From: Candidatus Woesearchaeota archaeon | GTDB lineage: Archaea; Nanobdellota; Nanobdellia; Woesearchaeales; GW2011-AR4 | Direction: 5' to 3' | Length of the DNA stretch: 64,000 nt | Assembly: GCA_016187465.1 (NCBI GenBank) | Contig: JACPJQ010000002.1 | Location: 1 to 64,000 of the forward strand | Shown: piece after piece, positions 1,513 through 59,539 of the stretch | Position numbering within the stretch: position 1 is the stretch's first letter | Layout of the letters: the number at the start of each line of letters is the position of its first letter | Translations under genes and position numbers: made by a program | Notes under the pieces: generated by a model | Database searches by the model: none | What the model was told of the DNA's origin: nothing | Seen by the model: only the letters and a program-made list of their open reading frames with translations

Positions 1513-1577
1513 GCTAGCCAGAGCGTGTGCGCCAACAGCGAGGGCTAGCACAAGAATTGCGAAGCGGATTTAAAATT
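1513..1577 (+). ncRNA. Structured RNA motif, copy A of four
   Basis: GCTAGCC (1513-1519) pairs with GGCTAGC, which is followed at once by ACAAGAAT. A short hairpin TTGC-GAA-GCGG and the tail GATTTAAAAT follow. The same architecture recurs at 21151, 54203 and 59469 with different but still pairing stems. A TATA-like TTTATAAAG lies at 1490-1498. The motif lies between two minus-strand genes and is antisense to both neighbours, so it is not their leader. Function is unknown. The ACA directly after the closing stem recalls archaeal H/ACA guide RNAs, but the trailing hairpin does not fit that class. Confidence 0.5.
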
Positions 1578-1656
1578 CAATAAATATAACCCAACAAAAA
1601 ATCCAATAACGATTTAAAAATATACATTTCGAAAAAATAAATCAAAATAAAAATAA

Positions 1657-4600
1657 TCATTCGCCCCAGTCTTTGAGGCTTATCTGCCCTTTTCTCTTGT
1701 TTTCTGGAACTTCAGTTTGCTCCTGGCCGAGCTGTTTTTTGAGGCTCAAAGCCACTTTATCTCCTAAAAGCTTGGTTAATGTCGACAAATCAGCACTCTT
1801 CAGATCTTTGATGTCCCTCATCCTGTTCCTGAATAACAGTCTTGCCCTAACCCTTCCGATGTTTTCAAGCCTGACCAATGGCAGCAGCTCCTCCTTGATG
1901 CCATACTTTAACCTCAGCCTTAACTTCACAATTTCCTTTATCAGAGATTGATAGTGCATTATCCGGCTTATCTCCTCTGTTGCGTAGAGCAGCCAATCGG
2001 CAATCTCCAGCTTCATTCTTAATTCCCCGGGCCTTATGTTGTATTCTTCCAGCAAGAATTCCTCGTCCTGCTCGCTTATCCAGTGATTCAGCATCAATGC
2101 AGTTTTCACAGAATTCAAAAAATCTTCATATTCGGGCTCATACATTGAAGGCTCGTTTTCAAGCAGTAAGGTGCTGAACTGCAGCATTGACTCCTGTATT
2201 TTGTCATATTCCCTTATCCCGACTTTGAGCATCGGCCTTATCTCAAGTGTATGGGATACCATCTGCAGGAACGAGAAAGATTCTATCCTTTTATCAGATG
2301 CGTTCTGTAGGCACTTGATTATGAAGTTGGCAGTCAAAGGGTCTATGTAAAGCTCAGCAATCCTCCTGCCCATCAAAGTCGGCTTTAGCTTTTCATCGTC
2401 TATTTCATCAGCGCTGGCGAATTCGTCTCCAGAGCGCATTATGAATTCCCACTCGTCAAGCATGCCTATAACTTTGGATATTGTTGCATGCAGTCTTCTC
2501 AAATCCTTGAATTGGTGCGCATAAAAAGTCTTGTCAAAAAAATCAAAAAGCTGTTTTTTTGTTGTAGTGAAATTCGCCGCTATTAATGAAAGGACATAAG
2601 TCCTTAGGACCGGCTCAACGGCAAGCTTCGAGTAGATATCTTCCGGAGTGCCATTCACGTATTTTTCCTCTATTTTTTCCTTCTCGGAGTTTGTCAGAGC
2701 AATTGCAATGGACTGCCCTTCATTGTCGTATCTCGGTCTTCCGGCCCTGCCCGACATCTGCATGTAATCCAGCACGGGAATCCATGTGAGCCCGTGGATA
2801 GTATATCGCTTCAGGTCCTTTATTATTGCCCTGTAAGCAGGCAAATCCACTCCGTATGAATTATGAACAATAAATCCTTCTGCAACAAACATATGACTGT
2901 TAAATGGGCTATTTGGTAATACAACATCATAAACATCTTCTTCATAATCTAAGATTTTTATTTCTTTTACCATATCCCAAAAAATGTCCCCTTCAAAATC
3001 TGAACTTCTCCAACTTTTTTTAATAAAAATAGTAAGTTTTGTATCACAAATTGGACAATTATTCAGTCTAAAAATATCATTAAAATTATTATTAAGTAAT
3101 GAACTATGAACCCATTTACCTATATTATTTAAAGACCAATACCATTCTGTATTACTTCTACTGCCCATCCTTTTTTTTGAAATTAATTGGTAATGATGAT
3201 TTAACCTAATCTCTTTCTTTCTAGGCTCATGACTTAAAATTTGATTAATCTCTCTTGAGCCTAATTCGTTGTTTTCGCCTACTAATTTTATAACTTCAGG
3301 CTTTCTTTTTCCCCATTCTTTTTGCTCGTTAGTTCTGCCTCCAAATAAATCTTTGTATAGCTTATAATTACATTTATTACATGAGATATAATGAATATTT
3401 AGGTTAAATCCTTTTAGAACATTTTTAAGAGCCTCCTGCTTCCGTTTAACACTGAAACCAATCTTTTTATGAAATCTTTCAATGCAAATTTTCTGATTTA
3501 TTAATAACTCATAAATAGGTTTTGTAGCGTATTCCTTATCATAAATTTTCATAATCCTTTTTTCTTTTTTTCTTATTGTACAAACAATTCCAAATCTTAG
3601 TAATAGTTTTTGAACATTTTTTATAAGCCTGTAAGATATACTGCAAAAACCAATATTTTTAGTATGTTTCTGCACAAAACCATCTGTGTCAAATAAACCT
3701 CGTAATAGCTCAGCAACTAAATCGCCTTCAGAATTCATTATTAATGCAGAAATATACTTATTCTCTCCTTTTTCAACACCACAGCTGCACAGAAATTCTC
3801 TAAACCACTTATTCTTGCCCAATACTAGTTGTGGTGTTCCATGAAAAGTTTTGCTAATTCTATAACTTATTCCAAGTTCTCTACAGGTACTCATAACTTT
3901 AAAAAATATTTCTTTATCTTTTCCCACAATACTGGGGCTTCCTTTATATATTATTTTTCCATTAGAAGTTTGAGCTCCAGAATAGCCATCACCAAGCATT
4001 GCACCTATCAGATACGAAATAGATTGGCTAAAATTGATATTAACAGGTATGTCATTATCTTTAACTAAATCACTTATTTTTGGTACGCTTTTCTCATTAA
4101 TATTTAAATAACCGATTGTAGCTATTTTGTCCTTTATCTTAATTTTATCAGCAGAAATTATCACCTTTTTATTGTTCCTTTTTATATACATTTTATGATT
4201 TGGAGTAACTTTTATTGAGTAGCCAGAAACTGAAGAGATTTGAATCAACTTTGAAGAATTCTTCACCTTTTGAATTTTTTGAGTTTTCATGCTTATTAAT
4301 TTATTATTGGAAATCACAAAAATAGGATTAGATGTCTCAAACGTAGAAACTTCAGTTTCATCTATACCGTGCCATAATTTTGTATCTTTAGATAAACAAA
4401 GAGTAGGCGTGCAGCATATCAGTTTTATTGTGCCATTCCTGAAATTGTCCTCTATAATATTTTTTTGGTGCTGCGTCAGGCCTGCATGATGGAATGCAAT
4501 TCCCTTTTTCAGGCAGAATGCAAGCCTCTCGCACTGCTTTGTAGGCCTTGAAAGCGCATTCAAGGCATCATCAGCCAAGGCTTTCAGAACATCATTTTCT

Positions 4601-4755
4601 GTTTTTATCTTCTTTGATATTTCCTCAGCGGTCTTCTCTGCAGATTTCTTTGTGCTCGCAAAAATTAAAGCCTGCTTCCCAATCTTCAAAGTGTCCAAAG
4701 CGATATTAAGAACAGCACTGTCAAACTGGTCGTCAAGCTTGATGGATTTTTGCAT
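1657..4755 (-). CDS. hel308: Hel308-type helicase lacking RecA1, with intein
   Basis: C-terminal part of an archaeal Hel308/Ski2-like superfamily 2 DNA helicase. It starts at the second RecA domain (GKQALIFAST), then FHHAGL, motif V (TPTL, intein, SYGVDLPA), motif VI (QMSGRAGRPRYD), the winged-helix and ratchet region, and a C-terminal helix-hairpin-helix (LENIGRVRARLL). Motifs I and II (Walker A, DExH) are absent. The frame is open up to an ATG at 4827, overlapping the neighbouring gene. A TATA box (CTTTATAAAC on the minus strand, about 4777-4787) lies 27 nt before the ATG at 4755, so a leaderless start there is preferred; it coincides with the RecA2 boundary. After intein removal the protein would be about 519 aa, against about 700 for the family. 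It is either half of a split helicase or a decaying gene. The separate RecA1 half is not in this window. Confidence 0.8.
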   Translation of the reverse strand: MQKSIKLDDQFDSAVLNIALDTLKIGKQALIFASTKKSAEKTAEEISKKIKTENDVLKALADDALNALSRPTKQCERLAFCLKKGIAFHHAGLTQHQKNIIEDNFRNGTIKLICCTPTLCLSKDTKLWHGIDETEVSTFETSNPIFVISNNKLISMKTQKIQKVKNSSKLIQISSVSGYSIKVTPNHKMYIKRNNKKVIISADKIKIKDKIATIGYLNINEKSVPKISDLVKDNDIPVNINFSQSISYLIGAMLGDGYSGAQTSNGKIIYKGSPSIVGKDKEIFFKVMSTCRELGISYRISKTFHGTPQLVLGKNKWFREFLCSCGVEKGENKYISALIMNSEGDLVAELLRGLFDTDGFVQKHTKNIGFCSISYRLIKNVQKLLLRFGIVCTIRKKEKRIMKIYDKEYATKPIYELLINQKICIERFHKKIGFSVKRKQEALKNVLKGFNLNIHYISCNKCNYKLYKDLFGGRTNEQKEWGKRKPEVIKLVGENNELGSREINQILSHEPRKKEIRLNHHYQLISKKRMGSRSNTEWYWSLNNIGKWVHSSLLNNNFNDIFRLNNCPICDTKLTIFIKKSWRSSDFEGDIFWDMVKEIKILDYEEDVYDVVLPNSPFNSHMFVAEGFIVHNSYGVDLPAYRAIIKDLKRYTIHGLTWIPVLDYMQMSGRAGRPRYDNEGQSIAIALTNSEKEKIEEKYVNGTPEDIYSKLAVEPVLRTYVLSLIAANFTTTKKQLFDFFDKTFYAHQFKDLRRLHATISKVIGMLDEWEFIMRSGDEFASADEIDDEKLKPTLMGRRIAELYIDPLTANFIIKCLQNASDKRIESFSFLQMVSHTLEIRPMLKVGIREYDKIQESMLQFSTLLLENEPSMYEPEYEDFLNSVKTALMLNHWISEQDEEFLLEEYNIRPGELRMKLEIADWLLYATEEISRIMHYQSLIKEIVKLRLRLKYGIKEELLPLVRLENIGRVRARLLFRNRMRDIKDLKSADLSTLTKLLGDKVALSLKKQLGQEQTEVPENKRKGQISLKDWGE
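2860..4398 (-). mobile_element. Intein in Hel308 motif V, with LAGLIDADG domain and zinc fingers
   Basis: A 513-residue protein-splicing element within the helicase gene. It begins with Cys (CLSKDTKLW) after TPTL and ends VHN before Ser of SYGVDLPA, so both splice junctions have the expected Cys and Asn/Ser residues. Block B is TPNHKMYI. Two LAGLIDADG-like motifs are visible, LIGAMLGDG and LLRGLFDTDG. Between the endonuclease and the C-terminal splicing block lie two cysteine pairs (CNKC and CPIC) that look like zinc fingers, an uncommon addition. The reading frame is intact, so splicing and homing may still work although the host helicase has lost a domain. Confidence 0.9.
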
Positions 4756-4810
4756 ATGCTGAAAAAGTGCAAGCTGGTTTATAAAGTTTGCTTGAGAAAT
4801 TTCAAAAATG

Positions 4811-6703
4811 TCAAATAACATTAACATTTATAATCTGCTCAATCTCATCTATGCCGTCGCTCACGGTAACTTTAACAACTTTGGCTCCTCTCGTCGTGAA
4901 TATTCGCTGGTGCATTGAAGTTGCTTTGTATTTCTGCAAAAAGCCGAAGTTCCATGTGTAGCTCAAGTCATCTTCATCCTCGTCAATTGCTTTAACAAAC
5001 ATCAGCACAGGCTTATTTACCCTTGCAACAACTGTTTTGCTGGCATTTATGATTATTGGAGGCCTGTTCTTATCGGCTATTTCAGCTTTCGCTATCTGCC
5101 TTGTCTCTGACTCGCCGTCACTGGCCACAAACACCAAATCAATTTTTGCAGTCTCTCCTTTGCCTGCTGTGCTGAAGTCAGGCGTCCACAAAAATGCATT
5201 TCCTTCAAGGGATGAGCCGCCAGGAGGATTGTCAATTAAATAAGTAATCTCGTCGCCGTCGGGGTCATTGGCATTAAGGAGTATTGCTATGCTGTCTCCT
5301 TCTCTTGCCTTTATTTCCTGTATTTGCCCGAATATAGGAAGCCTGTTGACATGCTCTATGTTTATGTCCACAAACTTTGAAGTCTCGAGCGAGCCATCGC
5401 TTGCAGTAACTTTGACATTGTAGGCTCCAGTATCGCCAAAGTTTGATTTGAAGGTGTCTGTATTTATAAACCCGGAGTAGCTCAGCTTTACCCTGTCGCC
5501 GTCCAAATCATACGCTTTCGGCGCTATTTTAAAAGCGTCTCCCTCGTTTATGTTTATTGGCTCAATATCCTCAAGCACAGGCGCCCTGTTGACATCCTTG
5601 ACGGTTATTATCACATTATGGACGATTTTTTTGTCTTTTGATGATGCTGTGAATTGCACATAAAAGTTCTTGTTAAGAATTCCAAACTGGTTCAGCACTC
5701 GATCAATAAGTCCTTCCTTCTTGACAGTATCGTAGCTTGGTTTCCATGCAAATATACTTCCGTTTAATGCTGCGCCCTCTGGCATGTGGTCAGCATTGTA
5801 AATTATTTCATCGCCATCAGGATCATTGGCATTCAAAGTGATTTTAAGTTCTTCATTCTCATTTGCAATTTTGTTGCCTATCTCGTCAAAAGCCAGCGGC
5901 CTGTCAACATCATTCACAACAATATTTACATTTTTGTCTTTGCTGAATCCTTTTCCTTCGGCATGGACAGTAATTCTGCGGCTGCCAGCATCTGAATATC
6001 CTGTTTTCCATTCATTCTTATCGCCGACAGGTTCTGATATCGAATAGCTCAGCCCATACTTCTCAAAATCCGGAAGATTGAGGGTTATAACATCGTTTTC
6101 ATTTGCAGTAATGTCTTGTATGCCTTCCAGCAGGCTTTCGACATCGACATCTGCTACATCAATATCCCATTTTCTGCCCACTTCACTTGTCCCGTCTGAC
6201 ACGGAAACAAATACTTTATGGCTTCCGGCATCGTCATAAGTAGTGTCGTAAGAAAACTCCTCCCATTTTCCTGATTTTTCATCATCTAAACGCCATTCGT
6301 AGCTCAACTCGTCCTCGTTCAAGTCTGTTGCCAGAACCTTAAAGTTAATTGACTCTGCCTCATTAATACTCAAAACATCCTGTTCCGGAGAATAAGATTC
6401 TATCCTAGGCGGCTCTTCCTTTTTTTTTACTGTTATCAGCACATCCTTGGACACGCTTGTAATGCCGTCAGAAACTGTTATTGCGGTCTTGTATTCGCCT
6501 GCATCCCCGTAATTGGTCTGCCATTCGCCATTATGGTCAAGCGGATGCTCATATTTTATTATAAGGCTGTCCGCATCAGGATCAACCACATTAGGCTCCA
6601 AGCTTAATTTTTCTGTTTCCTGAATAGTAAAATTTGATATGGAATGCGCAATATATGAGAATGCAAAAAGTATAATTACCAATAACCAAATCCCTTTATT
6701 CAT
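4811..6703 (-). CDS. Secreted cadherin/PKD-like repeat protein
   Basis: A 630-residue extracytoplasmic protein. An N-terminal hydrophobic segment (LLVIILFAFSYIA) acts as signal peptide or anchor. About seven Ig-fold repeats follow, resembling dystroglycan-type cadherin or PKD domains: each has a WxTxYxDAGxY-like strand, a VSDG-type turn, and a Dx(N/D)xPP(V/I)-like linker beginning the next unit. Asp- and Asn-rich linkers suggest calcium binding (inference). No sortase or membrane motif is seen at the C-terminus, which ends at the last beta strand. It lies 37 bp downstream of a lipoprotein built from the same repeats and is probably co-transcribed. A role in surface adhesion or host-cell contact is likely for the family, but the ligand is unknown. 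Confidence 0.8.
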   Translation of the reverse strand: MNKGIWLLVIILFAFSYIAHSISNFTIQETEKLSLEPNVVDPDADSLIIKYEHPLDHNGEWQTNYGDAGEYKTAITVSDGITSVSKDVLITVKKKEEPPRIESYSPEQDVLSINEAESINFKVLATDLNEDELSYEWRLDDEKSGKWEEFSYDTTYDDAGSHKVFVSVSDGTSEVGRKWDIDVADVDVESLLEGIQDITANENDVITLNLPDFEKYGLSYSISEPVGDKNEWKTGYSDAGSRRITVHAEGKGFSKDKNVNIVVNDVDRPLAFDEIGNKIANENEELKITLNANDPDGDEIIYNADHMPEGAALNGSIFAWKPSYDTVKKEGLIDRVLNQFGILNKNFYVQFTASSKDKKIVHNVIITVKDVNRAPVLEDIEPININEGDAFKIAPKAYDLDGDRVKLSYSGFINTDTFKSNFGDTGAYNVKVTASDGSLETSKFVDINIEHVNRLPIFGQIQEIKAREGDSIAILLNANDPDGDEITYLIDNPPGGSSLEGNAFLWTPDFSTAGKGETAKIDLVFVASDGESETRQIAKAEIADKNRPPIIINASKTVVARVNKPVLMFVKAIDEDEDDLSYTWNFGFLQKYKATSMHQRIFTTRGAKVVKVTVSDGIDEIEQIINVNVI

Positions 6704-6740
6704 TTATCCCCCAACTCTAAAAAAGAAAATACAAAAAAAA

Positions 6741-8420: not shown

Positions 8421-8598
8421 CATGCACCCTCCTTTATTCAATCTTTTGACATAAATAAAGTGTTGTTATTTTAAAATAATAACTTATATTTAAACTTTGT
8501 GGTAGTAAATGAAATTTTTGATTAAAATTTGGGATTTACATAAATATTTTTCAGAAAAATTTGCCAATATAATAATTAGTATTGACAAAAATAAAGAA

Positions 8599-8706
8599 TG
8601 GGCCTGGTGTGATTTGAACACATGACCTCCGCCTTATCAGAGCGGCGCTCTAACTGCCCAGCAAGCCGATTTTCAACCGGCAGCTACCAGGCTGAGCTAC
8701 AGGCCC
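8599..8706 (-). tRNA. tRNA-Ile (GAT) with D-loop intron
   Basis: Acceptor GGGCCTG/CAGGCCC with discriminator A at 8599. D stem GCTC/GAGC, anticodon stem CCGCT/GGCGG, loop CTGATAA giving anticodon GAT, T arm ATGTG-TTCAAAT-CACAC. The D loop is broken by about 33 extra bases between AGCCTGG and TTAGAGC (about 8686-8654). These fold into a hairpin (GCCG/CGGC within CTGCC/GGCAG). Removing them gives a standard D loop. The anticodon loop has no intron. A D-loop intron is non-canonical in archaea. CCA is not encoded. Confidence 0.92.
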
Positions 8707-8733
8707 GAATGGATTATTGAAAATATAGTTAAT

Positions 8734-9039: not shown

Positions 9040-9096
9040 TAGTATGAGTTGTATATTGGGGTATATAATAGTTTTGATGAGAAAGTACACCGCAAC

Positions 9097-9129
9097 CACT
9101 GGACATTTCCCGACGCAGGTTATTTAAAG
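9097..9129 (+). promoter_or_regulatory. Promoter of LAGLIDADG element 1
   Basis: A CACTGGACAT box (9097-9106) lies 13 nt before a TATA box TTATTTAAA (about 9119-9127). The predicted transcription start falls at about 9148, exactly where the folded leader begins. The same box, spacing and TATA position precede the second LAGLIDADG gene at 58318-58347. Confidence 0.65.
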
Positions 9130-9148
9130 CAGTTCTCCTTCTAGAATT

Positions 9149-9239: not shown

Positions 9240-9245
9240 TTACGA

Positions 9246-9282: not shown

Positions 9283-9292
9283 TTTGATTAAA

Positions 9293-19969: not shown

Positions 19970-20731
19970 CTATATTTTCTGTGTCAAAGGTGTGTTTTTG
20001 CTCGGCTCTATATATTTTTGATATGGATTTTTTATTGAGCTTTTTGTTGGATTGCCAGCGTTATTGTTAACATGACATGAGTATAAACCAATCAATGCCG
20101 CAGCGCCTGCCACTAATGCAGCATATAAAGCATTTTTGCGCCAATTGGTTTGCTTAAGAGTTTCATCGAATTTTGTTCCAAAAAGATGGTTGTAAAGTTT
20201 GGCTGTTTCAGTTGGTGATAGTCCATAACTTGCAATTAGTTCAGAGTACACCTCTGGAATTCTTTCTCCAAATTTCTTTTTTGGATCCGTTTCTATTTTA
20301 GGTATTGCGTAAACTTCATCGTGCTCATTTACCCTACCATCGGATTTGGCCCCCCCAGGTACTATAATATAAACAATTTTTGGTTTGCTCCTTACATTGG
20401 CAGTTAGGTCATCACCAGTATAGTCATAATCAGCAGAAAACACAATGGCTTTATTTCCAATTTTCAATAGTTCTGGGTAATAAGGAGAGGGAACTCCGAC
20501 TTTATCAACAAGCGTTTTAGCTATATCTATGATTACTTTCTGATTTATTTTTTGCCCAGTTGTATCCAGTAAGTTCTTGATGTCCCTCCCCATAGAATAA
20601 AGAATTGCATTTCTTGCAACGGTTTCATCAAAAATTATAATAGGATTTCCTCCAATTTCAATTTCTTCCTCAATTTCATTAAAAACTACAGTAGGTTTTA
20701 CTTTATTTGTAATTTCTTCTAGAGTATTCAT
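19970..20731 (-). CDS. Hypothetical protein with C-terminal membrane helix
   Basis: A 253-aa protein without a recognised family. An N-terminal soluble part of about 195 aa contains a mixed alpha/beta segment (NKAIVFSADYDYTGDD, KIVYIIVPGGAKSDG). One membrane helix follows (ALYAALVAGAAALIGLYSC) and a short polar tail, so it looks tail-anchored. Its SD (GGTGAGG) overlaps the end of the 49-aa gene upstream, indicating coupled translation. Its downstream neighbour is the TPR-like protein. Confidence 0.6.
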   Translation of the reverse strand: MNTLEEITNKVKPTVVFNEIEEEIEIGGNPIIIFDETVARNAILYSMGRDIKNLLDTTGQKINQKVIIDIAKTLVDKVGVPSPYYPELLKIGNKAIVFSADYDYTGDDLTANVRSKPKIVYIIVPGGAKSDGRVNEHDEVYAIPKIETDPKKKFGERIPEVYSELIASYGLSPTETAKLYNHLFGTKFDETLKQTNWRKNALYAALVAGAAALIGLYSCHVNNNAGNPTKSSIKNPYQKYIEPSKNTPLTQKI

Positions 20732-20740: not shown

Positions 20741-20890
20741 TCACAAAAACATCTCGTCCATCTCGAAATCAGAAAGCTCTTTCTTATTTATTAATTTAGC
20801 GAAATCCTTGTCCTTCATCTTCTTCCTTTCGCTTCTCATTGCCTCAATCTGTTCCATGTCCTCATCGAAAAATAATTCTTCTGTTTCCAT
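20741..20890 (-). CDS. Small acidic/basic helical protein, 49 aa
   Basis: An ATG at 20890 is preceded by the SD TAGGAG at good spacing. The product is 49 aa and highly charged: acidic start (METEELFFDEDMEQ), basic middle (RSERKKMKDKDF), acidic end (FEMDEMFL). It is probably one long helix. The stop is 10 bp before the next gene, whose SD overlaps it. No family recognised. The gene is supported by the SD and by its position in a tight four-gene run. Confidence 0.5.
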   Translation of the reverse strand: METEELFFDEDMEQIEAMRSERKKMKDKDFAKLINKKELSDFEMDEMFL

Positions 20891-20898
20891 TTTAACTC

Positions 20899-21074: not shown

Positions 21075-21150
21075 CTTTCGCTTAACACTATAAAATATAC
21101 TTATTTTCTATATTGAAAAGAAAGAATATTAGAATGTTGAATATTAATAG

Positions 21151-21256
21151 GCGAGCCTGAGCGGGTACATGGCGAGCGAGTCTCTTCGCGAGTCTCGCAT
21201 GTCACCGGCAAAGAAGCGAAGGCGAGCACAAGAATTTGCCGAAGGTGTATTGAAAT
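21151..21256 (+). ncRNA. Structured RNA motif, copy B of four
   Basis: GCGAGCC (21151-21157) pairs with GGCGAGC (21221-21227), with two central G.A/A.G pairs. ACAAGAAT follows directly, then a hairpin GCC-GAA-GGT and the tail TATTGAAAT. The interior is longer than in other copies and forms its own hairpin: ACATGGCGAG pairs with CTCGCATGT around a CG-rich loop. It contains ATGGC(G)AG, like copies C and D. It lies between minus-strand genes and runs opposite to them. A TATA-like TATAAAATA at about 21090 could start a transcript. See the copy at 1513. Confidence 0.55.
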
Positions 21257-21278: not shown

Positions 21279-21590
21279 TTACTTTATCGGATGCCTCATA
21301 TAATGCTTGCAGCTTAGGCAATAATAAATAAGCCTGTGCTTATGAATCCTTATCCTGCAGTTAACGCTTGGGACAAGATATTTATGGCAGTTCTTGCAGA
21401 ATCTTTTCTTAAGCGAAGAAGGCAGTCTTATTTTATGCTTCATTGCGATTCTTCTTGCCATCTTTACATACTTGTCAGAAATCCTGCTGTCTTTCCTGAG
21501 ATTATCCTTGGCAAGCTCGAACATCAGCTTGATGCGCTCTTTCGCTATTTTCTGGATTTTATGTGGTTTTTTATAGTATTTTTTGGGCAT
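21279..21590 (-). CDS. rnp4: Ribonuclease P protein component 4 (Rpp21)
   Basis: A 103-aa archaeal RNase P subunit of the Rpr2/Rpp21/SNM1 family, which binds the specificity region of RNase P RNA with RNP1 (Rpp29). An N-terminal helix (KIAKERIKLMFELA) precedes a zinc ribbon: CKNC and CLSC pairs with basic residues between. The Lys/Arg-rich start MPKKYYKKPHK is typical. No partner subunit lies nearby. The next gene upstream is hppA. Confidence 0.92.
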   Translation of the reverse strand: MPKKYYKKPHKIQKIAKERIKLMFELAKDNLRKDSRISDKYVKMARRIAMKHKIRLPSSLKKRFCKNCHKYLVPSVNCRIRIHKHRLIYYCLSCKHYMRHPIK

Positions 21591-52595: not shown

Positions 52596-52699
52596 AGGTT
52601 AAAGACTCATTCTTTGGGATTTATTAAGTTTATTGATAGTTTTTCATTTTTGATAATATAATTATTGAGTTTGTCAATTAAAAAACTAGAATTTGATTA

Positions 52700-53299
52700 T
52701 TACAGTAAAGGGTTCTTCCAATCATCTGGATGCAGATGTCTTGTACCACGAATTGATACTTTTTCTGATGGCAAATCCAAATGTTTTAAGTCAGATACTC
52801 TCACATTCTGGAAAAACGCTCTGGGAATTCCAACATTATCAAAATTTTGTCCATAGTCGTTGATGAGTTCTGCAATTCTATGATTTGTTAAAAAACTGCG
52901 CTCGACATCAATAAATCTTAGAGGTCCGTAATCTCTACCCTCCTTAAAACTTTCAAACCTAGATCCTAGATGGACTCCTTCTAATTTTTGTTTTGCAATC
53001 GATTCTAGTGTGGATTCAACATATGCAAAATCAACCTCGTCAGATTCCTCTTTTTTGCAAGATAATTCTATATAGAAACTAGCGGGCAATCCATAGAAAA
53101 AACGTCCTAATCCGCTCGGAATGACTCGAGTATGGTCAGCATAGTAGGTTATTCCGGCAGGGCTTTTGAACTCTGCTAAAACAGAGGTTATTGAACCTAA
53201 ACGAAAATCGTTTAATGAGGACTCCCTTAATTCTTCTGTTGTTAATCCAGCACCAGTTACATAATATTTATTTTTTGGAGTGAATATTTGGAATGCCAT
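52700..53299 (-). CDS. Hypothetical protein, 199 aa
   Basis: A soluble protein not matched to a family. An alpha/beta mix is suggested (FQIFTPKNKYYVTGAGLTTE, VIPSGLGRFFYGLPASFYIE, EVDFAYVESTLESIAKQKLE). The repeated sequence style around LGSRFESFKEGRDYG is unusual. It lies head to head with the nitroreductase gene, leaving a 73-bp spacer that must hold both promoters. Confidence 0.55.
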   Translation of the reverse strand: MAFQIFTPKNKYYVTGAGLTTEELRESSLNDFRLGSITSVLAEFKSPAGITYYADHTRVIPSGLGRFFYGLPASFYIELSCKKEESDEVDFAYVESTLESIAKQKLEGVHLGSRFESFKEGRDYGPLRFIDVERSFLTNHRIAELINDYGQNFDNVGIPRAFFQNVRVSDLKHLDLPSEKVSIRGTRHLHPDDWKNPLL

Positions 53300-53372
53300 C
53301 TTTGCAGGAAATTGCTATCTGTTTAAAAATTTTTCAGTTAACTATTTAAATACCCTAAGCACAAATAATATT

Positions 53373-54059
53373 ATGGAGCACCACAAACACCACACTCATT
53401 CTCATCGTATGAATATTTTTGATTGCATAAGAACTCGCCGTTCAATAAGGAAATACAAAGACAAGGACGTGCCTTGGGATAATATTGTTGAGATTCTGCA
53501 GTCCGGCAAGTATGCCCCGTGCGCCGGCAACATTTTCAACCTGAAGTTCATTGTTGTGAAAAATGAAGCTAAAAGGACGGCTATTGCGGAAGCCAGCGTA
53601 CAGCAGCACTGGATGCAGGATGCTCCAATCCATATTGTTGTGGTAGGCGAACCTGAAAAGGCAGAAAGATATTACGGCACAAGAGGCGCAAGGCTTTACA
53701 CCTTACAGGCTGCAGGCGCTGCAATCCAAAATATGCTATTGACGGCTCATTCTCTTGGACTGGGATCGTGCTGGGTAGGCGCTTTTGACGAAGAGGAAAT
53801 AAGAAGGCTCTGCAACCTTCCCGAGCACGTCAATGTGCAAGCCGTTGTGACAATCGGCTATGCTGATGAAGTCCCTCAAATGCCGCCAAAATACAGGATA
53901 GAACATGCCATGTTCTTTGAGAAATGGTGGGGCAGGATCGAAGGCCCGAAGACAGGACTGGGCATGTGGAGCCCTGTCATAAAAAGTGCTGTAACAAGGA
54001 CACATAAGCACATTAAGAAGCATGTTGAAAAAATAAAGGGGAAGTTGAGGAAGAAATGA
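53373..54059 (+). CDS. Nitroreductase-family FMN oxidoreductase
   Basis: A 228-aa flavin enzyme of the nitroreductase superfamily. The FMN phosphate site RTRRSIRKYKDKDV, then SGKYAPCAGN, and GLGSCWVGAFDEEEIR are typical. A His-rich leader (MEHHKHHTHSHRMN) could bind metal. The frame is open 31 codons upstream, but a TATA box (TATTTAAATA, about 53341-53350) is about 27 nt before the ATG at 53373, so translation is likely leaderless. The substrate is unknown; NAD(P)H is the probable donor. Confidence 0.86.
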   Translation: MEHHKHHTHSHRMNIFDCIRTRRSIRKYKDKDVPWDNIVEILQSGKYAPCAGNIFNLKFIVVKNEAKRTAIAEASVQQHWMQDAPIHIVVVGEPEKAERYYGTRGARLYTLQAAGAAIQNMLLTAHSLGLGSCWVGAFDEEEIRRLCNLPEHVNVQAVVTIGYADEVPQMPPKYRIEHAMFFEKWWGRIEGPKTGLGMWSPVIKSAVTRTHKHIKKHVEKIKGKLRKK

Positions 54060-54202
54060 ATTTTTGTTCTTTGATTTTTAGAGATTCGATAAATAAATTC
54101 TATAAAACATAACGATAACGAACAAAATAAAAAACACGAGAGCGACTTTGTGCTGTGAAGTAAATAAAGTAAACCGCTTTTAATGTTTTATTGAATAAAT
54201 AG

Positions 54203-54276
54203 GCGAGGCGTAAATTAATGGCAGACAATTTAAGCCGAGCACAAGAATAATGTCGTGAAGCGACGGATTGAAATTT
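54203..54276 (+). ncRNA. Structured RNA motif, copy C of four
   Basis: GCGAGGC (54203-54209) pairs with GCCGAGC (54234-54240), with two central G.A/A.G pairs. An inner hairpin TAAATT/AATTTA has ATGGCAG in its loop. ACAAGAAT follows at once, then a hairpin GTCG-TGAAG-CGAC and the tail GATTGAAAT. It lies between the convergent nitroreductase and ftsZ genes. See the copy at 1513. Confidence 0.58.
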
Positions 54277-54296
54277 TTAGTTTTCTATCTGACCTC

Positions 54297-54328
54297 AAAT
54301 AAAAAAATGTGGCCCATTTCTGAGCCAC
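54297..54328 (-). terminator. Terminator of ftsZ
   Basis: On the minus strand GTGGCTC pairs with GGGCCAC (one G.T pair) around a short loop, followed by a run of T. It lies 100 bp after the ftsZ stop. The shape is that of an intrinsic terminator. Confidence 0.55.
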
Positions 54329-54333
54329 CGCTT

Positions 54334-54377
54334 GCCTTCATAATGAAAAACGTTGGGGGTGGTTTTCTAATGAAGGC
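54334..54377. repeat. Inverted repeat with exposed GGGGGTGG
   Basis: GCCTTCAT (54334-54341) and ATGAAGGC (54370-54377) are exact inverted repeats; the stem continues imperfectly as TGAAAAAC/GGTTTTC. The loop displays GGGGGTGG, an SD-like string on the plus strand, just before an 11-codon ATG frame that ends at 54405. It may be a second terminator arm for ftsZ or a tiny-ORF control element. Confidence 0.4.
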
Positions 54378-54426
54378 AAAGAAACAATCTCACCACAAAG
54401 ACTAAAGGGGTGATTATGAGTTTTGC

Positions 54427-55503
54427 CTATTGAATCAGTTCTATTCCAAGCTCGTGTGAAACGGCAATTGCTGCCTGGGTAGGCTTTGAGTAATCAACCT
54501 TGCCGAGCACCCACGGGCTTTTCACGCCCGTGATAATAGTCATGATTGTGATTCTGCCTTTCATGTCCTCTGCTACCCTTGCTCCCCAGATGACATTCGC
54601 ATCCTGATCGAGGCTTTCTGTTACTAATTCGCCTGCCCTGTTTATGTCATCGAGTGTCATATCCGGCCCGCCGACAACATGGATTAAAGCTCCGGTAGCG
54701 CCTCTATAATCAACTTCCAATAACGGGTTTGCAAGAGCCCCTCTTACAGCTTCTTCAACCCTGTTGTTTGTGTCTGATGAGCCTACGCCAATAACCGCAA
54801 CCCCGCCGTTTTGCATTATTGCCTTTACATCAGCATAGTCCAAATTGACAAGCGATGGAATTGCAATAGTTTCTACAATGCCTTTTATCATTGTAGCAAC
54901 CAGCTCATTTGCAACAGCAAATGCCTGCTGTATTGGCAAGTTGCCTGCAATCTGAACTAACCTATTGTTATCAATCACAATAACAGTATCAGAAACCTGC
55001 CTTAATTGCTGCAAACCAAATTCAGCTTTATCGACCCTTGCCCTTTCGATCTTGAACGGCATTGTCACAGTTCCAATTACAATAGAGCCTGTATCTTTTG
55101 AAAGATGTGCAACAACGGGAGCAGCGCCTGTTCCTGTTCCGCCGCCCATTCCTGCGCATACAAAAGTCATGTCAGCGCCTTTTACAGAATCCTTAAGCTC
55201 GTTCATTGACTCTTTTGCTGCTTCAGCCCCTTTTTCAGGAAAACCTCCGCAGCCTAAGCCTCTTGTAACGCCTTTTCCAATCAAGAACTTCCGATCGGCA
55301 TCTATTATGCCAAGATGCTGCTTGTCAGTATTGCATGCAATAATTTCAGCGCCTTTTATGCCCTTCTTGTAGAGCCAGCCGACCATGTTGTTGCCAGCTC
55401 CGCCAACGCCTATAACTTTTATGTTTGCCTGTCCGACCTCAAATCCCAAGCTTGTGTCTGCAGCCTGTTTTAATGCTCCTTCAACTAAAAAATCCATTTT
55501 CAC
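54427..55503 (-). CDS. ftsZ: Cell division protein FtsZ
   Basis: A 358-aa tubulin homolog that polymerises with GTP at the division site. The GTP-binding loop GAGGNNMV, the tubulin signature GMGGGTGTGAAP, and the synergy region NLDYADVKAIMQNGG (catalytic Asp) are intact. The N-terminal extension (VEGALKQAADTSLGFEVGQ) is typical of archaeal FtsZ2-like proteins. It lacks a long C-terminal linker. A perfect 22-bp palindrome overlaps its promoter. An SD (GGGGAGTGAG) precedes the ATG. Confidence 0.97.
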   Translation of the reverse strand: MKMDFLVEGALKQAADTSLGFEVGQANIKVIGVGGAGNNMVGWLYKKGIKGAEIIACNTDKQHLGIIDADRKFLIGKGVTRGLGCGGFPEKGAEAAKESMNELKDSVKGADMTFVCAGMGGGTGTGAAPVVAHLSKDTGSIVIGTVTMPFKIERARVDKAEFGLQQLRQVSDTVIVIDNNRLVQIAGNLPIQQAFAVANELVATMIKGIVETIAIPSLVNLDYADVKAIMQNGGVAVIGVGSSDTNNRVEEAVRGALANPLLEVDYRGATGALIHVVGGPDMTLDDINRAGELVTESLDQDANVIWGARVAEDMKGRITIMTIITGVKSPWVLGKVDYSKPTQAAIAVSHELGIELIQ

Positions 55504-55533
55504 TCACTCCCCTTTCCCCTAGCCTGTGGTTTC

Positions 55534-55555
55534 ATTTATATTGTACAATATAAAT
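55534..55555. promoter_or_regulatory. 22-bp perfect palindrome at the ftsZ promoter
   Basis: The half-site ATTTATATTGT is followed by its exact reverse complement ACAATATAAAT. It contains a TATA-like TTTATATT on each strand and lies 31-52 bp upstream of the ftsZ ATG. A dimeric repressor bound here would block TBP, or the site could fire in both directions. Confidence 0.6.
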
Positions 55556-55896
55556 TTCCGAATACCGAAATGTTTATATTGCTCTTCTTCACATCCCCTT
55601 TTAGAATTAGTTTGTGCCAACAGACTGATTTGATATCGTTTTATAGTTTTTTTCGTACTAAAAAACTAGAATTTCCAAAACAAGACTATTTCAAGCCGCT
55701 TTTCGCCAAAAAAGCTGCTTTAGATGAGTTTTTCGCCAAAAAAACTCATAATTAATCTTTCTTAAATTTTATCTCTATATATAAGTGAATTTATAAAGAT
55801 TTCTGGGGTTGAATATATATTTTAGGGTATATCGATAGTCTATTTGGCTTGTAACTCTCTATAGATTTATAAAATGATTTGCATTACTTGATGGGT

Positions 55897-57057
55897 ATGG
55901 TGGAACCTCACTCAATTGACGATCTTTTTGCACCAGGAACATCTTATGCGGAAGTTGAAGAGTATCAGGGTAGTGAAATACTTTTTGGAATCTTGACATT
56001 ACCCCAATCACCAAAAGAGCATCTTGCAGCTTATATTAAACTTAAAGGGGGTTATAATGGGAATAACCCAGATACGATGCTGGCTATTTTTGATGCTCTT
56101 CATGACAAGGAAGAAGGATTGAGCTATGGATTAAAAGGTGTTGAAAAGCTCAATCGGAACCCAAAAGCTTTGCTTGGTCTTAAACACCCCGGTAAGTTAG
56201 TTGAGTATATGTTAATTACATCTGAGGACATTTCTGAATTATCGCAATTGCTTGGAGAATTCCAAGGTGCAATGAATCATTTAAAAAATAAGTCACATAA
56301 TTTTTCTTACTATGATAAAGGATATTCTAAATTGCGGTTATCTCTTGAAGAGCTTGCGCAGCAGGTTATTGTTATAGGAACGGGTGTGGCTAACCATATT
56401 GGCCATATTACTTTCAAAAGCTACATTAATTCTCTTGGAGAAGGAGAAAAAGCAAAAAAATCAAATGATGAAGCATTTAATAGACTATGTTTGCTAAGAG
56501 ATGCTTACAGTAATCTGGCTCTTGCTGCTCAAATTTTAGGTTCAAAACAGCTGGTTTTAGATTACATGAGGCTTCACGAGGAAACAGGCGGCAGTTATGA
56601 AATAAAAGGCATAAGCTATGAAACTTTGAACGAATACGCATTTCATAAACATGGTATGGATACTGCCTCAACCGGAAATATTCCTAAGAGTATGAAATAT
56701 GATATGTTCTCATCACCGCTAAACAGAATTATTTTTGGCTTGAGTTTTGACGACTTTTTCAGATTGGAACATTTTAAAGAAGTAGATGATTTAGCCAAAG
56801 AGCCTAAAGAAGAAACTTCAGTTAAAGTACAACCAGCTTCTGATGCGGATTTTGCTCTTTTTGGAATTAATAACAAAAATAATTGGGAAGAAGCTAGCAA
56901 GAAATACAGGTCTCTAATGAAAGCACGATATATTGCTGTGTTTAGCAGTTCATCACTGCATCAAAATACCGGAGAAGTTCAAAGATTTAACGATGCTTTT
57001 GGCAGAATTAGGGAATTTTACAAACAAAAAGCTCTTCAAGAACAAAAGAGTGCATAG
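55897..57057 (+). CDS. Hypothetical protein with C-terminal J-like domain lacking HPD
   Basis: A 386-aa soluble protein. The first 300 aa are helical with no recognised family (LSELSQLLGEFQGAMNHL, LRLSLEELAQQVIVIGTG-type). The last 75 aa (ADFALFGINNKNNWEEASKK, then YRSLMKARY and FNDAFGRIREFYKQKA) fit the J-domain pattern: helices II and III with the family's conserved hydrophobics, but the HPD tripeptide is replaced by RYIAVF. It would not stimulate Hsp70 in the normal way. The frame is open 6 codons upstream; a TATA box TTTATAAAA at 55866 favours the ATG at 55897. Neighbouring genes include a possible Hsp70-like fragment at 57859. Confidence 0.6.
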   Translation: MVEPHSIDDLFAPGTSYAEVEEYQGSEILFGILTLPQSPKEHLAAYIKLKGGYNGNNPDTMLAIFDALHDKEEGLSYGLKGVEKLNRNPKALLGLKHPGKLVEYMLITSEDISELSQLLGEFQGAMNHLKNKSHNFSYYDKGYSKLRLSLEELAQQVIVIGTGVANHIGHITFKSYINSLGEGEKAKKSNDEAFNRLCLLRDAYSNLALAAQILGSKQLVLDYMRLHEETGGSYEIKGISYETLNEYAFHKHGMDTASTGNIPKSMKYDMFSSPLNRIIFGLSFDDFFRLEHFKEVDDLAKEPKEETSVKVQPASDADFALFGINNKNNWEEASKKYRSLMKARYIAVFSSSSLHQNTGEVQRFNDAFGRIREFYKQKALQEQKSA

Positions 57058-57104
57058 ATTAATAATTTATAGATTTATAAATAGAGCTTAACTACTTTAT
57101 TCTT

Positions 57105-57857
57105 ATGCCTTTCTACTTCATCGGTTTGGGACTAAGTAACGAAAAAGACATCACAATTAATGGCATTGAAACAATAAAAAAATGTGACATTATTTATTTG
57201 GAGAACTATACTTCTATCTTGAACTGCAAAAAAGAAGATTTGGAAAAGTTCTACAATAAAAAAATAATCTTGGCTCCAAGGCAGAAAGTTGAAAATGATA
57301 AGAATGAGATTATAGACAACGCAAAAACGAAGAATGTAGCTTTTCTTGTTGCTGGTGATCCTTTTGCCGCAACAACCCATATTGACTTGTTTTTAAGGGC
57401 AAAAAAAGAAGGAATAAAATGCGTTGTAATCCATAATGCTTCCATAATAACTGCCGTAGGCATTACGGGACTGCAGATTTACAAATTCGGCAAGACTACA
57501 AGCATTCCTTTTGACAATGAAAATATAGAAGCCCCATATGATGTATTGAAAGGCAATCTAAGCTTGGGCTTGCATACCTTGTTTTTGCTTGATTTAAATC
57601 CTGAAGACGATAAATTCTTAAGCGTTAATGACGCAATCAGATATCTGCTTAAGGTTGAATTGAAAAGAAATGAAAAAATATTCTCTGAAAAAACTTTATG
57701 TATTGGATGCGCAAGGATCGGAAGCCAAAGTCAAATGATTAAATTCGGGACTGCAAAAGAATTGTTAAAGCATAATTTCGGCAAGCCAGTTCATTGCTTG
57801 ATAGTTCCGGGGAAATTGCATTTCATGGAGGAAGAGGGATTGGATATTTACAAATGA
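57105..57857 (+). CDS. dphB: Diphthine synthase
   Basis: A 250-aa SAM-dependent methyltransferase (tetrapyrrole-methylase fold), the second step of diphthamide synthesis on EF-2. The N-terminus FYFIGLGLSNEKDITINGIE is diagnostic, as are VAFLVAGDPFAATTH and the ending FGKPVHCLIVPGKLHFMEEE. It has its own TATA box (TTTATAAAT, about 57073) and a probable leaderless start. The first-step gene dph2 is only a fragment in this window (18875). Confidence 0.94.
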   Translation: MPFYFIGLGLSNEKDITINGIETIKKCDIIYLENYTSILNCKKEDLEKFYNKKIILAPRQKVENDKNEIIDNAKTKNVAFLVAGDPFAATTHIDLFLRAKKEGIKCVVIHNASIITAVGITGLQIYKFGKTTSIPFDNENIEAPYDVLKGNLSLGLHTLFLLDLNPEDDKFLSVNDAIRYLLKVELKRNEKIFSEKTLCIGCARIGSQSQMIKFGTAKELLKHNFGKPVHCLIVPGKLHFMEEEGLDIYK

Positions 57858-57858
57858 G

Positions 57859-58146
57859 TTATCTATATTTTTTTATTATTTCTTCAATTTTCTGCCGTAT
57901 ATTCTGATTGTTCACATCAGCAATAACATTAGGGATATCTCTTCCATTATCGGGGTTATAAAAAATTGAAGCTTTAATACCGTCATTAATAAATACATAA
58001 GTTTCTGTATTAACTCTGGGGGCTGTTGGTTTAATCGGAACTGGAACTTCAACTCCAATACAGTCTGCAATCTCTCTTAGAATTGCCATTTTAGTATTCG
58101 AGCCATTTCCAACCAAAAAAATAGTTTCACTGATATTCCCGCCCAA
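57859..58146 (-). CDS. Small hypothetical, possible Hsp70/actin-fold fragment
   Basis: A 95-aa frame with no ATG start (TTG at 58146, or an internal ATG 18 codons in). SETIFLVGNGSNTKMAILRE resembles the phosphate-2 and adenosine region of Hsp70/actin-fold ATPases (ILVGG then IREKI). The rest of such a domain is missing, so it may be the remnant of a larger gene, or a coincidence. The LAGLIDADG element 2 begins within about 120 bp upstream. Confidence 0.4.
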   Translation of the reverse strand: MGGNISETIFLVGNGSNTKMAILREIADCIGVEVPVPIKPTAPRVNTETYVFINDGIKASIFYNPDNGRDIPNVIADVNNQNIRQKIEEIIKKYR

Positions 58147-58262
58147 ATACCAGTTTTCAAGGTTGATATTTAAATTTTATCCCGCTTTTCAAAGAACTGA
58201 AGCATTAAATTTAAATATCATCCAGTAGTCTTTGAGTATGCTTCGGCAGATTCGCTTTATAT

Positions 58263-58272
58263 AGCCCCGTGG
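58263..58272. repeat. Left copy of AGCCCCGTGG, flank of LAGLIDADG element 2
   Basis: These ten bases are identical to the first ten bases of the tRNA-Gln gene (59207-59216), 944 bp away. The LAGLIDADG unit lies between the two copies. They may mark an insertion that duplicated the tRNA 5' end. Confidence 0.45.
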
Positions 58273-58303
58273 AAGAATTAACTTAAAAGTTCTGTGAACT
58301 ACC

Positions 58304-58347
58304 CACTGGACAAAAAGCACTGGACATCTCTGCCTAAACTATATAAA
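58304..58347 (+). promoter_or_regulatory. Promoter of LAGLIDADG element 2
   Basis: Two direct copies of CACTGGACA (58304-58312 and 58318-58326, 14 bp apart) are followed by the TATA box TATATAAA (58340-58347). The predicted start is about 58369, where the folded leader begins. Element 1 has a single copy of the box at the same distance from its TATA box. Confidence 0.65.
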
Positions 58348-58368
58348 CCCATTCTACTTTTAGAAATT

Positions 58369-58464
58369 GAAAAAGAGAACACGCAAAATTCCCAAATTAA
58401 GTCTTTTGGTTTTTATCAAAACACAAAAGCCTATTACGGAATTTCGCTTCACATTCTCTTTTTC
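58369..58464 (+). promoter_or_regulatory. Folded 5' leader of LAGLIDADG element 2
   Basis: The outer stem GAAAAAGAGAA (58369-58379) with TTCTCTTTTTC (58454-58464) is identical to element 1. The middle stem GCAAAATTCC/GGAATTTCGC and the inner CTTTTG/CAAAAG differ from element 1 but still pair, apart from one mismatch. Confidence 0.68.
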
Positions 58465-58470
58465 TTTTAA

Positions 58471-58509
58471 CTCCAAAGCCTTTACAAAAATAAAAAACTT
58501 TGGATGGTG
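58471..58509 (+). promoter_or_regulatory. Ribosome-site hairpin of LAGLIDADG element 2
   Basis: TCCAAAG (58472-58478) pairs with CTTTGGA (58498-58504), directly before the SD string GGTGAT (58506-58511). As in element 1, the stem abuts or covers the ribosome binding site. The ATG is at 58516. Confidence 0.55.
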
Positions 58510-58515
58510 ATAAAA

Positions 58516-59205
58516 ATGAATAAGCAGGAATTAATAAGGAAATATAAGACAACAAATGTTAAGATTCCTAATTTGCCTGATAAAAATGCAATGCTGGCAG
58601 AATTAGTCGGGATTATTCTAGGTGATGGTAATATACATGTTTATCCCAATAATGGACTGTATGCATTGAGAATAGCTGGAAATGCTGTAAAGGACTATGA
58701 TTATCTGACTACTTATGTTTTTAATTTATGCATGAAATTATTTTCAATTAGACCTAGAATTTACAAGCAACCAAGAGTTGACTGCATTTATTTAATAATT
58801 CAGAGTATAATTGTAACAGATTTCTTATTGAGTATGGGTTTAAAGGAGGGTAATAAGATAAAAAGTCAAATTACTATACCGGATTGGGTCATAGAAAATG
58901 ATGTTTATTTAAAAGCATGTATTAGAGGATTGATTGATACAGATGGCTGTGTTTACGAAATGCTTCCACATTGGCCTGGCTTGTTTCAGATAAATTTTGA
59001 AAACAGAAACATAACTTTGTTGAAAGATACCAGAAAGGCCCTAATAAAGTTAGGCTATAATCCTTCTAGAATATGTGGCAAACGAACCATAAACGGAACG
59101 AAATGTTATATTTCTAGAAAAGAGAAAATCAAAAAATTTTATAAAGAGGTTGGGTCTAGCAACGATAGAAATATAAAACAATTCAATAAAGTATTAAATT
59201 CATGA
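58516..59205 (+). CDS. Free-standing LAGLIDADG homing endonuclease 2
   Basis: A 229-aa endonuclease with two motifs, LVGIILGDGN (about residue 30) and CIRGLIDTDGC (about 135), each with the catalytic Asp. Middle and end segments (LTTYVFNLCMKLFSIRPRIY, FYKEVGSSNDRNIKQF) are typical of the family. An in-frame ATG four codons upstream exists, but GGTGAT lies 4 nt before the ATG at 58516. The stop lies 1 bp before tRNA-Gln, so the gene abuts the tRNA 5' end. It shares promoter and leader with the gene at 9293. The tRNA gene is the probable target or insertion site. Confidence 0.88.
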   Translation: MNKQELIRKYKTTNVKIPNLPDKNAMLAELVGIILGDGNIHVYPNNGLYALRIAGNAVKDYDYLTTYVFNLCMKLFSIRPRIYKQPRVDCIYLIIQSIIVTDFLLSMGLKEGNKIKSQITIPDWVIENDVYLKACIRGLIDTDGCVYEMLPHWPGLFQINFENRNITLLKDTRKALIKLGYNPSRICGKRTINGTKCYISRKEKIKKFYKEVGSSNDRNIKQFNKVLNS

Positions 59206-59206
59206 C

Positions 59207-59353
59207 AGCCCCGTGGTGTAGCGGTCAAATTCTCTAATTTTATTAGGGGAGCCGAGGCATCGTGCCCTTTGGAGGCAGCGAAAATCAGAGATTTTCTGGT
59301 CTTTCTGCTGCTGCAGAAAGGCATGGACGGCAGTTCGAATCTGCCCGGGGCTA
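59207..59353 (+). tRNA. tRNA-Gln (TTG) with D-loop and anticodon introns
   Basis: Acceptor AGCCCCG/CGGGGCT with discriminator A at 59353. D arm GTGT...GCAT. Anticodon stem GTGCC/GGCAT with loop CTTTGG plus A, giving anticodon TTG. T arm GGCAG-TTCGAAT-CTGCC. A D-loop insert of about 28 nt (59229-59256) contains the hairpin CTCTAAT/ATTAGGG. A canonical 37/38 intron of about 46 nt (59273-59318) contains a hairpin. A repeated AGGCA at the second splice site leaves its exact position ambiguous. CCA is not encoded. Gln-tRNA is made from Glu-tRNA by the GatDE pair in this window. Confidence 0.9.
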
Positions 59354-59468
59354 TTTTTGATAAGATTTATAAAGTATCCAAGTTTTCCATATATTGAAAG
59401 ATAGTGCGGTGAAAGCTTCGCTATGCTGGATGAAATATGGATTTCTCCAGAGTTTAATGCAATGTATG

Positions 59469-59539
59469 GCTAGGGCGAGTGTTATGGCAGGAAAACGAGC
59501 CCGAGCACAAGAATTTGCAACGAAGTTGCGTATTGAAAT
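59469..59539 (+). ncRNA. Structured RNA motif, copy D of four
   Basis: GCTAGGGC (59469-59476) pairs with GCCCGAGC (59499-59506), with one A.G pair. ATGGCAG (59484-59490) lies in the apical loop, as in copy C. ACAAGAAT follows, then a perfect 5-bp hairpin GCAAC-GAA-GTTGC and the tail TATTGAAAT. It ends about 32 bp before the S15P start. An upstream TATA box (TTTATAAAG, about 59367) could start a 150-nt transcript that includes a further CTGGA/TCCAG hairpin. Confidence 0.6.

Follow-up and report, generated by a model that had tools for sequence, protein, structure and literature searches.

The window analysed here is a stretch of 64,000 nucleotides (positions 1-64,000 of contig JACPJQ010000002.1, assembly GCA_016187465.1, forward strand) from a Candidatus Woesearchaeota archaeon. 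It contains four plus-strand copies, S1 to S4, of an intergenic element in which a first hairpin is followed by a conserved box and by a second, short hairpin. A preliminary description made from the letters alone had presented them as a four-copy family of structured RNAs. The four copies are real, and they belong to one large family. They are present as described when the sequence is read directly, and R1, a covariance model with an 83-position core built from the 26 copies of an alignment (A2), returns exactly these four matches in the window at E up to 5 and no fifth. S3 (54189-54272, E 3.7e-23) and S4 (59455-59537, E 1.1e-21) lie within the training alignment; S2 (21137-21254, E 1.3e-11) and S1 (1499-1573, E 2.1e-7) lie outside the training set. 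An exact two-box pattern occurs at four places in the window genome, three of them inside the window, and its reversed control gives none. The copy number of four was a large underestimate, since the window genome holds 48 R1 matches at E up to 0.01. The features of the four copies are:

1513..1576, plus strand: S1, core only (sequence reading and R1 match).
1513-1519 / 1543-1549, plus strand: hairpin 1 of S1, GCTAGCC / GGCTAGC, a fully Watson-Crick stem.
1550-1557, plus strand: box of S1, ACAAGAAT (sequence reading).
1559-1565, plus strand: hairpin 2 of S1, GC-GAA-GC, then the tail GGATTTAAAAT.
21151..21256, plus strand: S2, core with a further hairpin in the apical loop (sequence reading and R1 match).
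21151-21157 / 21221-21227, plus strand: hairpin 1 of S2, GCGAGCC / GGCGAGC, with tandem G.A/A.G.
21165..21205, no strand assigned: hairpin of another repeat family in the S2 loop, ending CATGTCAC (genus matches).
21228-21235, plus strand: box of S2, ACAAGAAT, then hairpin 2 and the tail ATTGAAAT at 21249-21256 (sequence reading).
54136..54184, plus strand: 5' module A of S3, ACGAGAGCGACTTT...AAAGTAAACCGCTTTTAAT, a hairpin bulged by 4 nt on one side.
54203..54274, plus strand: core of S3, stem GCGAGGC...GCCGAGC with tandem G.A, loop AATGGCAGAC.
54241-54248, 54252-54264 and 54265-54274, plus strand: box ACAAGAAT, hairpin 2 and tail GGATTGAAAT of S3 (sequence reading).
59469..59539, plus strand: S4, core only, GCTAGGGC (59469-59476) / GCCCGAGC (59499-59506), loop with TATGGCAGG.
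59507-59514 and 59517-59529, plus strand: box ACAAGAAT and hairpin 2 of S4, then the tail ATTGAAAT (sequence reading).

The stem mismatches described as shared are present as tandem G.A/A.G in S2 and S3 and as A.G in S4, whose hairpin 1 has T-A plus one A.G and no tandem G.A; they do not extend to S1. Likewise the common tail is found in S2 and S4, whereas S1 reads GGATTTAAAA, and the ATGGC assigned to the apical loop sits, in S2, in the other hairpin (ca. 21165-21205) inside that loop. S1 is antisense to both of its neighbours, a phage-integrase-family gene (43-1227, minus strand) and an intein-containing helicase gene (1657-4827, minus strand), as is S2 to an open reading frame (ORF; 19970-20731, minus strand) and to rpr2 (21279-21590, minus strand). 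S3 lies between the convergent nitroreductase-family gene (53280-54059, plus strand) and ftsZ (54427-55503, minus strand). S4 is sense and ends 31 nt before the likely ATG, at 59571, of the uS15 gene, the identity of which was confirmed separately. The intein of the helicase gene carries a LAGLIDADG domain, and a LAGLIDADG gene (58504-59205) adjoins S4. Upstream of the uS15 gene are two further hairpins (59399-59450), found in 17 of 17 genus sequences and preceded in many of these by TTTATAAA; they are a candidate uS15 autoregulatory leader.

The case for structure is comparative and not thermodynamic. From 60 pattern-derived rows, a few of which are overlapping readings of one copy, the 26 with equal hairpin-1 spacing were aligned as A2. 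Their consensus core runs AATAAATAG, GCGAG, stem, a loop near ATGGCAGA, stem, CGAGC, ACAAGAAT, hairpin 2 with its GAA loop, and GGATTGAAA. Standard pairs fill 81.1% of the cells, though the G.A columns are scored as unpaired, and 11 of the 18 pairs show changes on both sides. By our own score the covariation is 0.406 against 0.104 (sd 0.014) in shuffled alignments, a control that leaves the relatedness of the copies in place, and none of 500 shuffles reaches 0.406; slid alignments give only 0.051-0.118. Further pair types number 25 versus 22.1 in the shuffles, 52 of 500 reaching 25. Covariation of this strength is what a structured RNA family should display, and the proposal of one family with stems that differ and still pair is borne out. 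Single copies are only modestly more stable than shuffles of themselves, with z from -1.05 to -2.15 for the plus strands of S1-S4 folded as RNA and from -0.14 to -1.96 for three of them folded as DNA.

In 112 distinct aligned copies hairpin 1 comprises 1,055 Watson-Crick cells, 305 G.A/A.G, 19 G.T, 3 A.C and 11 other mismatches, and hairpin 2 comprises 393 Watson-Crick, 5 G.T and 6 A.G. Because the stem mismatches are nearly all G.A, and would be C.T on the opposite strand, the strand aligned here is taken as the folded one. An automatic search gives GAA as the hairpin-2 loop in 69 of the 112, and a closing C-G in 88.

Sequence comparison establishes that the copies form a large family of dispersed, structured elements that is confined to one lineage and absent from Rfam. 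The search with a covariance model that the preliminary description had called for recovered copies throughout the genus and in the family. At E up to 0.01, R1 matches all 20 genus genomes, with 1-104 matches each (635 in total, median 26.5; the lowest counts are G005 with 1, G011 with 2, G015 with 4 and then G008 with 7). The 13-mer CGAGCACAAGAAT, allowing one mismatch, is also present in 20/20, mostly well above its reversed control, and matches some coding sequence by chance. At the family level (E up to 0.001) 29 of 36 genomes and 7 of 11 genera have matches. In a sample of the order, searched at E up to 1e-4 with stricter filters and 15 candidates scored per genome, 15 of 287 genomes match, every one of them from this family; the sample includes 18 family members, and up to 269 genomes outside the family gave none. 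A stricter pattern run on GTDB contigs yielded 33 stretches, of which 31 carry the title Candidatus Woesearchaeota; the two others lack the rest of the element and are chance-like, as are both pattern matches on viral contigs, so that viral carriage was rejected. A scan of the window with Rfam 15 placed only a tRNA above the gathering threshold, and permissive scans of 54080-54460 and of four loci with copies gave nothing above the gathering score on the element, in agreement with the view that no known family covers it. Among the papers listed by searches of the literature on repeats or noncoding RNA of Woesearchaeota and DPANN archaea, no title or abstract start described such elements.

A simple script called the ORFs, with errors among the neighbours; the neighbours of S2 had been assigned wrongly, and this copy was recoded by hand. 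Of the 112 copies, 52 are sense and 17 antisense in codirectional gaps, 15 are divergent, 18 convergent and 10 without a called neighbour on one side; a called ORF, in some cases spurious, overlaps 17. When one member per abutting inverted pair is kept (93 units) the codirectional gaps hold 49 sense versus 10 antisense, and when 18 shared-site copies are also dropped and S2 is recoded (75 units) they hold 40 versus 10 (p 2.4e-5). The mixed orientation reported earlier therefore describes the window, in which S4 is sense, S1 and S2 are antisense and S3 sits between convergent genes, and not the sampled genomes, where the sense bias is strong. A 3' gap of 23-45 nt to the start codon occurs in 16 of the 35 sense units with near neighbours on both sides versus 4.2 expected at random, and a 5' gap of that size in none versus 4.1 expected. 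The median distances are 131 nt to the upstream and 45 nt to the downstream gene.

From the sense bias, the start spacing, the retained pairing and the kind of downstream genes we infer an action on gene expression. The explanation we tentatively prefer, at rather less than even confidence, is that these are coding-strand elements at cistron boundaries which act in transcripts. The copies would have spread as DNA, slowly and long ago, and the ones retained would serve as intercistronic or leader elements. Their hairpins might shield or delimit the 5' portion of the cistron that follows, by blocking decay, setting a processing site or presenting a platform for protein binding, and the spacer before the start codon, rich in A and T and poor in G, would remain open.

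As to the genes served, 41 downstream proteins with a start within 90 nt were listed, and 28 of them, plus two window neighbours, were scanned with Pfam. Ten of the 28 are S13, L18e, L10, Hsp70, proteasome alpha, GyrB, enolase, aldolase, prefoldin and transketolase, and eight have no Pfam family; among 20 random genes of one contig of the window genome none is in those classes and eight have no family, the classes having been picked after the list was viewed and the two gene sets coming from different genomes. A post-transcriptional regulon, in which a single protein binds the ATGGCAGA loop and the hairpin with tandem G.A in leaders of genes for ribosomal proteins, chaperones and central metabolism and tunes the translation of all of them together, would account for such a list and for the conserved loop with its flanking CGAG/CGAGC. 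With classes chosen after the fact against a one-contig background, with antisense and convergent copies, and with sites that are empty in relatives, we regard it as quite improbable.

Several observations weigh against an action in transcripts. Some copies are antisense or convergent, and among these a 3' gap of 23-45 nt is likewise more frequent than expected (3 of 9 antisense units versus 0.7 expected, 4 of 8 convergent units versus 1.0; in divergent units 2 of 9 versus 0.6, p 0.11), so that the spacing may belong to the element. Some genomes have no element at a given site, and same-site copies are no more alike than random ones (uS15 p 0.43, ftsZ p 0.18); saturation or replacement has therefore to be assumed, and re-insertion may have occurred. 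For an RNA role the stems are also poor in G.T, which makes up 24 of the 1,472 standard-pair cells (1.6%) of the 112 copies, against 35 of 194 G.U cells in 11 sequences of the uS15 leader of the same genus, the one control RNA on which this comparison rests (16 leaders were found by an altered pattern that missed the window copy, and 11 were used). Without two nearly fixed G.U pairs the leader count is 14/172. Minimum-energy folding gives G.U shares of 9.6% in the copies and 15.6% in 13 uS15 leaders; the share is higher than in the consensus because folding adds pairs outside it. GNA loops are described as extraordinarily stable in DNA (PMC4686876), and the rare G.U together with such triloops means that selection could be on folded single-stranded DNA.

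TATA-like boxes also weigh against an action in transcripts. In the spacer between a sense unit and the start codon a loose pattern occurs in 15 of 25 cases versus 9.3 when shuffled, and a stricter one in 11 versus 7.9, with 7 of these 11 beginning 24-31 nt before the start codon. The count does not support an impression by eye that no promoter lies between element and gene; some copies are thus probably upstream of the promoter and outside the leader, and the case for the transcript is lowered. The copies could instead be DNA elements placed immediately 5' to the core promoter of a leaderless gene, their GGATTGAAA end or hairpins acting on initiation or insulating it from the upstream gene. 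The core promoter of a leaderless gene is of a length comparable to 23-45 nt, which the 3' gap would fit, and the sense bias would be expected. The TATA excess is modest, however, and none is seen in the five divergent gaps (loose pattern 2, versus 2.1; strict 1), where a promoter must exist. At the uS15 site the TATA-like TTTATAAA is upstream of both the leader and the element, and covariation of stems is unexpected in a double-stranded binding site. We consider this promoter-proximal role unlikely and, between the two, lean towards a place within the transcript.

Dispersed copies and unfilled sites make it likely, on the comparisons made, that the copies spread as DNA. The uS15 site has an R1 match in 12 of 17 genomes, the window included; of the five without the element, L157, L158 and L170 join the leader straight to the gene, and L164 and L168 have a different insert. 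This insert (GATTTAACTAAAAC...GTCGTCAAGGGGCGAAACCG; L164 ca. 846-946, minus strand; L168 ca. 4384-4547, plus strand) is itself apparently structured. The ftsZ site has a match in 9 of 15 sequences, with weak ones in L154 and L165, and the L156 copy is on the opposite side of a conserved block. On the 3' side of ftsZ (window ca. 54306-54426) a stretch of ca. 110 nt, GTGGCCCAT...GAGCCACCGCTTGCCTTCAT...ATGAAGGCAAAG, is near-identical in 15 sequences (without its 5' end in L158) and perhaps a small RNA, for which an Rfam scan of 54080-54460 gave nothing above threshold. The S2 site is matched in the window and L199 only, out of 14. The element-less sites are too diverged to place an insertion boundary. 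Similarity of orthologs versus paralogs was tried as proof of vertical descent and gave no signal; descent is argued, more weakly, from shared neighbours and architecture, for example one inverted pair that is flanked by the same genes in two species, and the recurrence of module A at the ftsZ locus (window, L152, L153, L154, L155, L163, and L158, where the core is lost) as compared with 26 of 112 copies overall.

It is conceivable, though doubtful, that nothing more than mobility is involved and that the copies are non-autonomous mobile repeats of single-stranded DNA, comparable to the hairpins formed by doublets of repetitive extragenic palindromic (REP) sequences (REPINs) or to IS200/IS605, with a folded strand recognised by an HUH/Y1-type transposase and no gain to the host. 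The sense bias would then reflect insertion into coding-strand DNA that is exposed in transcribed regions, and the 30-nt gap would remain because insertions that disrupted a promoter or the end of a gene were purged. The many dispersed copies, the abutting inverted pairs, the uS15 sites without an element, the rare G.U, the DNA-stable loop type and the 3' gap raised in all orientations are consistent with this, as are Y1 transposase genes in 8 of the 20 genus genomes, many of which are incomplete. Copy number is unlinked to Y1, however (medians 30.5 vs 24, p 0.26), and the richest genome, with 104 matches, has no Y1 match. Nor are there near-identical copies within genomes. Identity averages 0.546 within genomes (904 pairs) and 0.532 between them (5,312 pairs), with genomes assigned by hand; the best within-genome value is 0.87, and no young bursts were seen: the copies are old. 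The core motif was not found around the Y1 and TnpB loci fetched (L091-L106, 8 of 18 Y1 and 8 of 9 TnpB matches), where isolated hairpin or tail motifs occur in six. No transposon with a conserved DNA sequence, which would have overturned the preliminary description, came to light, yet dispersal and unfilled sites resemble slow DNA mobility. The interpretation given in that description is partly supported.

Module A, seen at S3, is carried by 26 of the 112 copies and stands without a core at L158 and L201. In 28 distinct aligned copies 99.1% of 224 cells are paired, both partners have changed in 4 of 8 pairs, and covariation is 0.132 versus 0.075. The 5' flank of the module is A-rich and G-poor (in 27 copies A makes up 67% of the adjoining 20 nt), also at the few copies antisense or convergent to genes; being there whatever the gene arrangement, the tract is probably part of the element. 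A discrete structured unit with conserved unpaired boxes and this A-rich flank under any arrangement might be an independent trans-acting small RNA, each copy with its own promoter. This is highly improbable, given that the position depends on the next gene, that a single genome can have as many as 104 matches and that, by eye only, no consistent TATA-like site precedes module A. In the alignment of module A (A10), column-12 C goes by eye with a bulge C in column 41 (5 of 5 rows) and T with A or T, a possible tertiary contact. ATTGAA-like repeats were also seen by eye at both ends of the element.

The stretch at ca. 21164-21206 in the S2 loop matches many other places in the genus, and similar inserts occur in other copies. 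Further hairpin families inside element loops are GTGACATGCGAG...CATGTCAC with its relatives and GTCGATAAAT...TTTCGAC (window 21165-21205; L169, L083, L049, L162, L163); such hairpins are also inserted in the uS15 leader. Upstream of the ORF at 19970-20731, ca. 150 nt of the window (ca. 20743-20896) are 80-92% identical as DNA in several congeners and are partly the promoter region of that ORF.

The closest known kind is that of the bacterial REP repeats and bacterial interspersed mosaic elements (BIMEs), except that here the element is tied to the downstream gene. As with REPs, BIMEs and REPINs there are many short intergenic hairpin units, single or in inverted pairs, forming mosaics with other modules and probably transcribed, and they occur in every genus genome. 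REP and BIME copies within a genome are highly similar in sequence, unlike the copies compared above. The element differs further in that its sequence varies while the structure is kept, in its tandem G.A and in that no transposase could be linked to it in these genomes, many of them incomplete; a GTAG/CGTC tag was not noticed, no search having been made for one. In the species treated in PMC3733652, REPs between codirectional ORFs sit near where the upstream ORF ends, and their distance to the downstream one varies, in contrast to the medians found here; CGTC REPs, as that paper notes, also have no dedicated RAYT (Y1) transposase. RepRanger (PMC12306157) reports REPs in archaea, its main text making no mention of Woesearchaeota or DPANN.

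Strand-specific hairpins recall the ends of IS200/IS605 and the miniature elements derived from them, but no Y1 or TnpB gene adjoins or is tied to the family at the loci looked at (L091-L106). A TnpB guide RNA was rejected: PF07282 is over cut-off in 2 of 20 genomes, and the core motif is absent around the eight such loci fetched. In integron attC sites, too, structure is kept while sequence varies and one strand is folded; these sites have RYYYAAC/GTTRRRY boxes, which were not noticed here by eye, and form cassette arrays, whereas our copies are scattered. Many CRISPR repeats have a 3' end resembling the hairpin followed by GGATTGAAA; a CRISPR-derived repeat was discarded, since the copies stand alone or form one inverted pair and only 1 of 20 genomes has Cas1 over the cut-off. 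Archaeal H/ACA guide RNAs have a pseudouridylation pocket between two stems and a terminal ACA. The element shares the ACA directly after a stem, but its stem is continuous apart from the G.A mismatches, a second hairpin follows the ACA and there is neither a guide pocket nor an Rfam match, so the doubts already expressed about an H/ACA RNA were justified. A combined H/ACA and kink-turn reading fails likewise, the G.A pairs lying in a symmetric stem without a 3-nt bulge.

A bolder picture, which we advance as speculative and think rather unlikely to hold in full, is of a once-mobile structured element that has become genome-wide cistron punctuation in a DPANN lineage, often with dozens of copies in a genome. 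Its coding strand would fold, either in the RNA or as DNA within the transcription bubble, some 30 nt before the starts of housekeeping genes, and a dedicated factor would control the expression of these genes by reading the tandem-G.A stem and the ATGGCAGA loop. Selection on RNA structure and selection on folded single-stranded DNA both leave covariation, and they should differ in the tolerance of G.U; the family is a good case for separating the two. Woesearchaeota are known mostly from genomes, and the covariation, strand bias and preferred start spacing of this element offer a concrete handle on how gene expression is organised in small archaeal genomes.

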